A DNA stretch of 64,000 bases from a virus: positions 62,001-126,000 of the IMG/VR virus record IMGVR_UViG_3300027857_000012. The stretch is one strand, 5' to 3'. Below the pieces are notes generated by a model. It was not told the DNA's origin. It saw only the letters and a program-made list of their open reading frames with translations, and did not search any database. How positions within the stretch are numbered: position 1 is the stretch's first letter; every line of letters starts with the position of its first letter. This document shows, one piece after another, positions 58,834 through 60,952 of the stretch. The position numbers and the translations under genes are program-made.

Positions 58834-58862
58834 ATTATATCACGAAAACGTGTGAAAGTACA
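58834..58862 (-). promoter_or_regulatory. Minus-strand TGTACT-17-TATAAT promoter
   Basis: Reading leftward: TGTACT 58862-58857, TATAAT 58839-58834 with TGA; drives the gene at 58793. Divergent from the nitric oxide synthase promoter. Confidence 0.85.
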
Positions 58863-58915
58863 TCATTTTTCTTTTCACTTAAAAAGACATAGTATCTTTT
58901 TTGGATTTTTCATGT

Positions 58916-58921
58916 TATAAT
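58916..58921 (+). promoter_or_regulatory. Extended -10 of the nitric oxide synthase operon
   Basis: TATAAT 58916-58921 with TGT before it. The -35 is poor (TATCTT at 17 bases, or AGTATC at 19), so activation by a factor is likely. The start of transcription falls on or next to the ATG at 58928. Confidence 0.65.
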
Positions 58922-58927
58922 TGTATA

Positions 58928-60091
58928 ATGATAAAAATTTTGTCTCATATTTTAAATCACCAAGCGACCAAAAGAGCGAAAAGTGTGTCAAAAGAAACAC
59001 TATTTCGTGCAGCGCAGACATTCCTTGAAACATTCTATGGTGAATGTCAAGGACATGTTCAACAAACGTATCGACATCGATTACATGATGTTCGACAAGC
59101 TATTTTTGAAACAGGGACGTACACACATACTCGACAGGAGTTAGAGTATGGTGCTCGAGTAGCGTGGAGGAACAGTACGCGGTGTATTGGTCGAGTTGCA
59201 TGGGAAACATTGGCCATTCGTGATTGTCGAAACATTGAGAACGAACTTGATATCTTTGCTGCGTGTGTGCAACATCTTCGTTACGCGACAAACGGTGGTC
59301 GGATTCGACCAACAATTACAGTCTTTGCGCCAGAAACACCCAAAACACCGACAATTCGTATTTGGAATGCGCAATTACTTCGATATGCTGGATATCAACA
59401 AACAAACGGATCAGTTCTTGGTGATCCACTACATGTTATGTTCACAGACGTGCTATGCGCACTCGGGTGGACGCCATCTGCTATGAAAACACCATTTGAT
59501 TTGCTTCCACTTGTTGTTCAAATTGGAACAGCGCCCCCGATGCTATTTGAATTTGATCGAAATGATGTGCTTGAAGTGGCACTTCAACACCCTCAGTATG
59601 CATGGTTTTCAGAACTTCAGTTGCAATGGTACGCTGTCCCTGTCATTTCGAATATGCGACTTGAGATTGGTGGCCTGTCCTATTGTGCTGCACCATTCAA
59701 TGGGTGGTATATGGGTACGGAAATAGGTGCTCGGAATCTTGGGGATGTTCAGCGATATAATCAGTTGCCTCGTATTGCACGACGAATGGGGCTTCCAATG
59801 ACAGCGTCAAGAACATTGTGGAAAGACCGAGCACTCGTCGAACTCAATATCGCTGTTCTTGACTCATTTGCGAAACAAGGTGTGACAATCGTTGATCATC
59901 ATACTGCAGCGCACCAGTTTATTGTGCATGAACGCAAGGAACAACGACATGCACGATCAACATTCGCTGATTGGGGATGGATCGTGCCTCCTCTTTCAAG
60001 TTCAATAACACCTGTCTTTCATCGAGACTACGTGAACACAATTGTATCACCAAATTTCTTTTATCAACCAGATCCATGGACTTCTCAATAA
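58928..60091 (+). CDS. nos: Bacterial nitric oxide synthase, oxygenase domain
   Basis: A 387-residue enzyme that makes NO and citrulline from arginine, using electrons from host reductases. Heme-ligand Cys lies in WRNSTRCIGR (about residue 83). WNAQLLRYAGYQ, DVLCALGW and LLPLVVQIG follow, then the arginine site FNGWYMGTEIGARN with its Glu, and TLWKDRALVELN and DHHTAAHQF of the pterin/dimer region. FHRDYVNTIVSPNFFYQ ends the protein. Length matches Bacillus-type NOS; there is no reductase domain. The start at 58928 is leaderless; the ORF from 58901 would begin upstream of the promoter. A globin gene follows 14 bases later. Confidence 0.95.
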   Translation: MIKILSHILNHQATKRAKSVSKETLFRAAQTFLETFYGECQGHVQQTYRHRLHDVRQAIFETGTYTHTRQELEYGARVAWRNSTRCIGRVAWETLAIRDCRNIENELDIFAACVQHLRYATNGGRIRPTITVFAPETPKTPTIRIWNAQLLRYAGYQQTNGSVLGDPLHVMFTDVLCALGWTPSAMKTPFDLLPLVVQIGTAPPMLFEFDRNDVLEVALQHPQYAWFSELQLQWYAVPVISNMRLEIGGLSYCAAPFNGWYMGTEIGARNLGDVQRYNQLPRIARRMGLPMTASRTLWKDRALVELNIAVLDSFAKQGVTIVDHHTAAHQFIVHERKEQRHARSTFADWGWIVPPLSSSITPVFHRDYVNTIVSPNFFYQPDPWTSQ

Positions 60092-60105
60092 GAAAGGGCA
60101 TACAC

Positions 60106-60738
60106 ATGTCTAGTCGCCTTGATCAGGATGTTGTATCGTGCTGTACGAATCTTCCTCCAGCAAATTGGAAACTATGGAGTCGAGATACACAAAAAGTGTA
60201 TGCTCTTTCTGATGGGACGAGAACTGAGGAGCGTATTGCACTCCTGTTAGGGCGAACACAAGCCGATGTGCATACGATTTTGAGTGTCTTATTTTTGAGT
60301 GGTTACATCACACTGCAACGAGGCGGACATGATGTTGTTGATTTTGCATTACTTGAAACGAGTTATCAGGTGATCGTGTCGCAACAGAAAGCATTTTTAT
60401 TTGATTTTCGGTTGGCCATTTTTGAACGACCAGACGTTTTTTCATTGTTTTCATCGCCCCACTTTGAATCGAATTTCTTGCAAGCATTGCATACGATTCT
60501 TCTCAAGATGCAACGACATGATCCCTCAGTGTTTCAATTTGTTCAACAACTCGGCGCAAGGCATGAAAAGTATGGTGTAACTCGAGAACATTTTCGTCTT
60601 GTTGGTGGATTTTTTCTAACTGTGTTGCAACGATATGTTGGTGTGTTGTGGACACGTCCGATGCAACGAACATGGGAAGCACTCTTTGGCGTGTTGACAG
60701 ATGTGATGTTGTTCGGGTACGGCCAGTTCACCGTGTAA
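60106..60738 (+). CDS. Globin with N-terminal helical/wHTH-like domain
   Basis: A 210-residue protein. The first 75 residues (KVYALSDGTRTEERIALLLGR, VHTILSVLFLSGYITL) look like a winged helix. Residues about 90-210 are a flavohemoglobin/cytoglobin-type globin: FQFVQQLGARHEKYGV with the proximal His (F8), then HFRLVGGFFLTVLQRYVG and TRPMQRTWEALFGVLTDVM. It could bind NO or O2 and act as sensor or detoxifier for the synthase upstream. AAGAAAGGG precedes ATG 60106. It converges with the small gene on the other strand. Confidence 0.82.
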   Translation: MSSRLDQDVVSCCTNLPPANWKLWSRDTQKVYALSDGTRTEERIALLLGRTQADVHTILSVLFLSGYITLQRGGHDVVDFALLETSYQVIVSQQKAFLFDFRLAIFERPDVFSLFSSPHFESNFLQALHTILLKMQRHDPSVFQFVQQLGARHEKYGVTREHFRLVGGFFLTVLQRYVGVLWTRPMQRTWEALFGVLTDVMLFGYGQFTV

Positions 60739-60952
60739 GTACTTGGTCTGGCCACACTGCAACACCACAGAGTGCAAGCACAATCCACGTGATCCATATG
60801 CTGCTCAAAATGAGAAACATGATATCAAAGCATCGATCAACACGATCACGATAGATGAGAAGGGCAGAATTTCGACAAAAGGTATATGCCGTCGCCCATA
60901 CTAGGCATGAGAGTGACACAAAAATGAGTGATCCAAAAAGATGTGTGCTCAT
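60728..60952 (-). CDS. Small membrane protein
   Basis: A 74-residue protein with two hydrophobic segments (about 4-24 and 42-65). AGAGGAATC precedes its ATG. It overlaps the end of the globin gene by 11 bases on the opposite strand. Confidence 0.65.
   Translation of the reverse strand: MSTHLFGSLIFVSLSCLVWATAYTFCRNSALLIYRDRVDRCFDIMFLILSSIWITWIVLALCGVAVWPDQVLTR

Follow-up and report, generated by a model that had tools for sequence, protein, structure and literature searches.

A nitric oxide synthase gene paired with a globin gene in a tailed-phage genome

Do bacterial viruses carry genes for making nitric oxide (NO)? The question is raised by a stretch of viral DNA in which a gene for nitric oxide synthase (NOS) is followed closely by a gene for a globin. 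This stretch, hereafter the window, comprises 64,000 nucleotides and corresponds to bases 62001-126000 of the 134,001-base IMG/VR record IMGVR_UViG_3300027857_000012. NOS is a flagship signalling enzyme, and our searches brought up no earlier description of one in an assembled viral genome. The data given below indicate that a recurrent phage NOS gene module is real; this conclusion is well supported at the level of sequence, and within the searches made the module is new as a virus-borne trait. The features of the locus in the window are as follows.

58928..60091, plus strand: NOS oxygenase gene, 387 residues (PF02898 match, conserved catalytic residues, G+C content at third codon positions)
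60092..60105, plus strand: gap of 14 bases from the NOS stop codon to the globin ATG, GAAAGGGCATACAC (sequence)
60106..60738, plus strand: two-domain globin protein, 210 residues (PF00042, E 1.9e-10; AlphaFold model)
60160..60345, plus strand: N-terminal domain of the globin protein, residues 19-80, resembling a winged helix-turn-helix (wHTH) by predicted helix-helix pattern only
60346..60726, plus strand: globin domain (alignment), with the proximal His F8 kept at 60562-60564

The NOS gene and the genome that carries it

The original prediction claimed a complete NOS oxygenase domain in a 387-residue protein with a globin gene 14 bases later, and both parts held exactly: PF02898 is matched over profile positions 2-361 of 362 (E 5.7e-161, 535.9 bits, curated cut-off 22.7), and the globin ATG at 60106 comes exactly 14 bases after the NOS stop codon. 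The NOS open frame spans 58901-60091 on the plus strand, and an alternative TTG start at 58901 would give 396 residues; ATG 58928 is the likely start. Among solved structures, chain 2flq_A, which bears the label Nitric Oxide Synthase, is the closest in sequence (E 1.5e-124), and alignment with solved NOS chains extends across the whole domain. In 396-residue numbering, Cys95 (heme), Trp89, Gln158, Trp269/Tyr270, Glu274, Arg278, Trp358/Trp360 and Phe373 are all as in cellular NOS; hence the Cys, Glu and pterin residues, on whose retention the original prediction depended, are not substituted. Judged by these residues, the protein is a member of the NOS oxygenase family with an active site of working type. 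It resembles the bacterial NOS of Bacillus, Staphylococcus, Deinococcus and actinobacteria in its domain, active site, Ile gate and absence of a reductase domain, but differs in being encoded by a phage, in sharing no more than 61% identity with any NOS found, and in having a globin gene next to it. A stand-alone response-regulator receiver domain is encoded just upstream of NOS on the opposite strand (window 57882-58346).

The carrier has the content of a tailed-phage genome. An exact 126-base direct repeat is present at both ends of the record, starting five bases in from the left end, and thus the genome is probably complete. Genes for terminase (E 1e-94), portal, head protease, head-tail adaptor and tape measure were recognised with PHROGs at 21-49 kb, followed by DNA polymerase III alpha, thymidylate synthase, a Cas4-like exonuclease and an integrase, and an amidase endolysin lies at 131 kb. 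The genome also has 18 tRNA genes (array 11103-19330), one of which, at 14388, has an undetermined anticodon. Phage genes flank the NOS-globin pair: the endolysin and others lie beyond it, and genes for virion structure and replication precede it. Moreover, the G+C content at third codon positions (GC3) is 0.31 for NOS, 0.356 ± 0.053 for the phage genes and 0.48-0.61 for NOS of Ktedonobacteria. Because phage genes stand on both sides and GC3 is phage-like, sequence evidence assigns NOS to the phage (Caudoviricetes) and not to a chromosome fragment, and by position it is an auxiliary metabolic gene, i.e. a host-type metabolic gene within a viral genome. An ordinary chromosome and contamination were both considered for this record and ruled out, since it has terminal repeats, phage hallmark genes and a base composition that fits neither; 'phage-like element', the term of the original prediction, understates what was found.

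The host of this phage is, as a best guess, a Ktedonobacteria-like bacterium, because of shared prophage genes, globins of the same architecture and the nearest cellular NOS. Among 47 Ktedonobacteria genomes, two have prophage-like regions that share the phage terminase (55% and 48% identity) as well as tail proteins, the Cas4-like exonuclease and the endolysin, each set on one contig; no NOS match was found inside these regions (L199-L202, two genomes). By identity the nearest cellular NOS are also those of Ktedonobacteria (up to 61%). In the tree the window NOS stands beside Bacillota/Bacteroidota (support 94/78), and grouping it with the NOS of Ktedonobacteria could not be rejected (p = 0.46). 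The phylogeny with host NOS that had been proposed at the outset bears on the number of acquisitions (see below) and is compatible with either placement of the window NOS among cellular NOS.

The globin protein

The 14-base gap suggests that NOS and globin are read from one transcript. The downstream protein belongs to the globin superfamily, as indicated by its PF00042 match, the predicted globin fold and the proximal His. When the four phage flavohemoglobins described below were supplied as homologues, AlphaFold modelled the globin half with a mean pLDDT (predicted local distance difference test) of about 85, and without homologues the protein reached 44; the best Protein Data Bank matches of the model in Foldseek were neuroglobins and Hell's Gate globin. 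Among the domains of flavohemoglobin, Pfam detected the globin domain only, without the flavin adenine dinucleotide (FAD) and nicotinamide adenine dinucleotide (NAD) domains. In the alignment, Arg (residue 102) replaces Tyr-B10, and the stretch that holds Gln-E7 is deleted. Tyr-B10 is essential to the dioxygenase reaction of E. coli flavohemoglobin, according to Gardner 2000 as cited in PMC3820574. With Arg at this position and E7 deleted, ligand binding or sensing is more likely for the window globin than NO dioxygenation.

The globin had been described as fused to a wHTH-like domain. An N-terminal domain does exist and is common to Ktedonobacteria globin proteins, which have the same two-domain architecture at 29-34% identity to the window globin; its wHTH nature is unproven, since no Pfam family matched at E up to 1 and the predicted helices have low AlphaFold confidence (pLDDT about 30-65). 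These Ktedonobacteria proteins, an unnamed family, are alike in architecture, but the phage copy lies beside NOS and has an altered distal pocket. The same type of domain also occurs in a separate gene upstream of one Ktedonobacteria NOS: at L149:2781-6516 the gene two upstream of NOS bears it (43% over 46 residues), which suggests that the domain is linked to NOS.

NOS modules in further phages and their origins

A profile built from the NOS alignment was searched against 2.9 million IMG/VR viral contigs, and four further phage contigs with NOS were found, which a second alignment profile returned as the same four; a single-sequence NOS search of the viral contigs gave no match. All four are of high G+C content. 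Two have terminal repeats, i.e. G004 (165,085 bases, repeat of 127 bases) and G005 (103,563 bases, repeat of 69 bases), and both carry terminase with tail sheath and baseplate, or with portal and tape measure. G006 (124,773 bases) has a terminase match, and G003, a fragment of 35,788 bases, encodes a major head protein along with genes clearly homologous to those for terminase, portal and capsid in G006. From their G+C content and nearest cellular NOS, these phages probably infect Actinobacteria. The heme Cys, the Arg-binding Glu, the stacking Trp and the pterin-site Trp, Phe and Arg are present in the NOS of all five phages.

Each of the four high-GC phages has a gene for flavohemoglobin (globin, FAD and NAD domains) immediately upstream of NOS, both genes being on one strand and overlapping or touching, and so the search for viral relatives that had been advised yielded the pairing along with the enzyme. 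The four flavohemoglobins retain Tyr-B10, Gln-E7 and His-F8 in the alignment. They are like the NO dioxygenase Hmp/Fhb in having the full globin-FAD-NAD architecture, whereas the window protein joins a globin to another N-terminal domain and is without Tyr-B10 and Gln-E7. In G004 (L103:7300-16873) the pair interrupts an array of 38 tRNA genes covering most amino acids. In G003 it stands beside a tRNA array, and in its relative G006 its location differs, with tail genes as neighbours. Just downstream in G004, at 92151-92585 of that record, is an HNH-like gene that might be linked to insertion.

The high-GC phage NOS form one clade in the tree (support 100/100) and are 60-68% identical to each other; the best identity in 395 Actinomycetes genomes is 57%. 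All four have an inserted residue beside the catalytic Glu, reading GWYxASTE for GWYxxTE, with a private Ser that occurs in none of the cellular NOS inspected. A single clade for all five phage NOS is rejected (p-AU 0.013, approximately unbiased test), and therefore NOS and globin appear to have been captured by phages at least two times. Between the phage groups, with the related pair G003-G006 set aside, no shared genes are better conserved than NOS and flavohemoglobin, and little else is in common. Hence the comparison indicates that the flavohemoglobin-NOS cassette moves between unrelated phages, a clear case of such movement for a metabolic cassette, and that the window phage assembled a NOS-globin pair of its own.

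A globin lies near NOS in 3 of about 125 cellular NOS loci (flanks of 1.5-4 kb, differing in length) compared with all five phage loci, the latter representing two independent events, not five. The three cellular exceptions are a Micromonospora plasmid and an Embleya replicon, in which the globin adjoins NOS, and a Priestia locus, in which it is about 1 kb away. On these counts the pairing was not taken over from an operon widespread in cells.

Concerning earlier records, the original prediction knew of no established viral NOS, and this was borne out by PHROGs, annotated phages and the open-access literature searched. None of the PHROGs families matches NOS, the window globin or the phage flavohemoglobin, and no phage NOS turned up in the open-access papers searched, although an earlier report may exist elsewhere. 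'Components of nitric oxide synthase' are mentioned for unassembled ocean viromes in the introduction of PMC4164917. NOS in two annotated phage records, OR845001 and OR850403, apparently belongs to S. aureus chromosomal DNA mislabelled as phage, and neither was counted. In OR845001.1, deposited as a Staphylococcus phage, NOS lies between nadE-like and NAPRTase-like genes and a prephenate-dehydratase-like gene with a transporter; read by eye, this is apparently the S. aureus chromosomal nos-pdt locus.

What the module may do

We consider it reasonably probable that the two genes form a nitric-oxide module carried by a tailed phage, most likely one infecting Ktedonobacteria, and that in this module NO is made and the globin handles it. 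NOS would be made during infection or lysogeny and would turn L-arginine into citrulline and NO. The electrons and the pterin or folate would be borrowed from the host, because the protein has no reductase domain and a search of the five phages for GTP cyclohydrolase I (FolE), which would give a pterin supply of their own, found none. According to Gusarov 2008 as cited in PMC9500659, bacterial NOS that lack a reductase use host electron donors. In the four high-GC phages, flavohemoglobin would oxidise NO to nitrate with NADH, and its NADH-driven reductase half may also feed NOS; control of NO by flavohemoglobin has a precedent in Streptomyces (PMC4766573), and the union of a globin with NOS has one in a globin-fused NOS (PMC6104048). 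In the window phage the globin would more likely bind NO or another gas, serving as a sensor or buffer through its N-terminal domain. The phage could perhaps benefit from a controlled pulse of NO, by which host respiration or redox damage would be slowed, or a defence or a second phage hindered, and the globin might protect the NO producer.

NO production together with control of NO by a globin is likely, and the independent pairing with a globin is a direct hint that the producer must control NO. The idea that NO is made and then sensed or scavenged gains from the recurrence of the pair in unrelated phages, which supports a functional module; 'scavenged' fits the flavohemoglobins of the four high-GC phages but suits the window globin less than 'sensed or bound'. 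If the genes are active, bacterial viruses would make a membrane-crossing gas that is an inhibitor of respiration and reacts with proteins containing iron-sulphur clusters or heme, and therefore an infection could have effects on the cells around the infected one. A viral parallel, the norB-nirK denitrification genes (PMC8115048), is likewise virus-borne, acts on NO and is thought to reshape host nitrogen metabolism, but there NO is made and consumed by denitrification in oxygen-poor water, whereas phage NOS, an O2-dependent enzyme, would make it from arginine.

Several results weigh against this interpretation. The shared ancestry of the four high-GC modules leaves only two independent events. 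Ratios of nonsynonymous to synonymous substitution rates (dN/dS) among the four high-GC phage NOS are 0.41-0.60 by the Nei-Gojobori method (NG86), and at a GC3 of about 0.9 they are weak evidence for purifying selection. The window globin has no reductase domain and has an altered distal pocket, so one mechanism need not fit all five phages. Finally, a promoter scan gave 10 sites against 7.0 (standard deviation 2.5) in shuffled sequence, which is about equal.

A wider proposal, which we advance tentatively and rate a little below an even chance, is that an NO-producing module, with NOS and a globin that handles or senses NO, arose independently in phages of two or more bacterial phyla, that NO serves as a virus-made signalling or effector gas, and that the module was passed among unrelated phages; the active-site insertion of the high-GC enzymes may alter chemistry or NO release.

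It is unlikely that the module acts in nitrogen metabolism, with NOS and (flavo)globin converting arginine to nitrate and citrulline so that free NO is not the point. SyNOS of Synechococcus PCC 7335 has a globin fused to NOS, and E. coli with SyNOS grows on arginine as nitrogen source (PMC6104048); four of the phages have complete flavohemoglobins with Tyr-B10, Gln-E7 and His-F8. SyNOS and the phage module each combine a globin with a NOS active site, but the phage module consists of separate genes on a phage genome, has no diflavin reductase and has a different globin. Moreover, the window globin is without Tyr-B10, Gln-E7 and reductase, and nitrate assimilation genes were not recognised beside the modules when the neighbourhoods were read, with no family-by-family search.

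That host genes were picked up accidentally and are functionless for the phage would agree with how common NOS is among the bacteria presumed to be hosts, as 12 of 47 Ktedonobacteria and 53 of 395 Actinomycetes genomes have it. We find this improbable, as the catalytic residues are intact in all five phages, base composition is adapted to the phage, the pair was re-formed independently though it is rare in hosts, and the module persists in unrelated phages.

NOS also serves actinobacterial nitration pathways, as in thaxtomin synthesis, where the NOS TxtD feeds the P450 TxtE. A P450-like candidate, RufO, is described in PMC10424215. The phage enzyme could in the same way supply NO to a nitrating enzyme that modifies a small molecule or protein, but inspection by eye revealed no P450 or biosynthetic gene adjacent to the five phage NOS genes and the partner is always a globin, which makes nitration very improbable. 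Assembly chimerism or cellular contamination misclassed as virus, as the S. aureus DNA in annotated 'phage' records could suggest, is hardly credible, given that three of the five contigs have terminal repeats, that hallmark genes surround the module, that its GC3 differs from that of host NOS, and that tRNA genes stand on both sides of the module in G004.

Concerning the rest of the window, NOS, globin and their nearest neighbours gave no PADLOC match, and a 782-residue Ser/Thr kinase-domain protein at 47126-49474 is related to kinases in phage-defence libraries. Positions 20224-22889 encode an AAA (MoxR/CobS-like) ATPase and, after it, a VWA (CoxE-like) protein, and the DNA polymerase III alpha at 2757-5609, which has a PHP domain, has a distant relative in G004 (27%).
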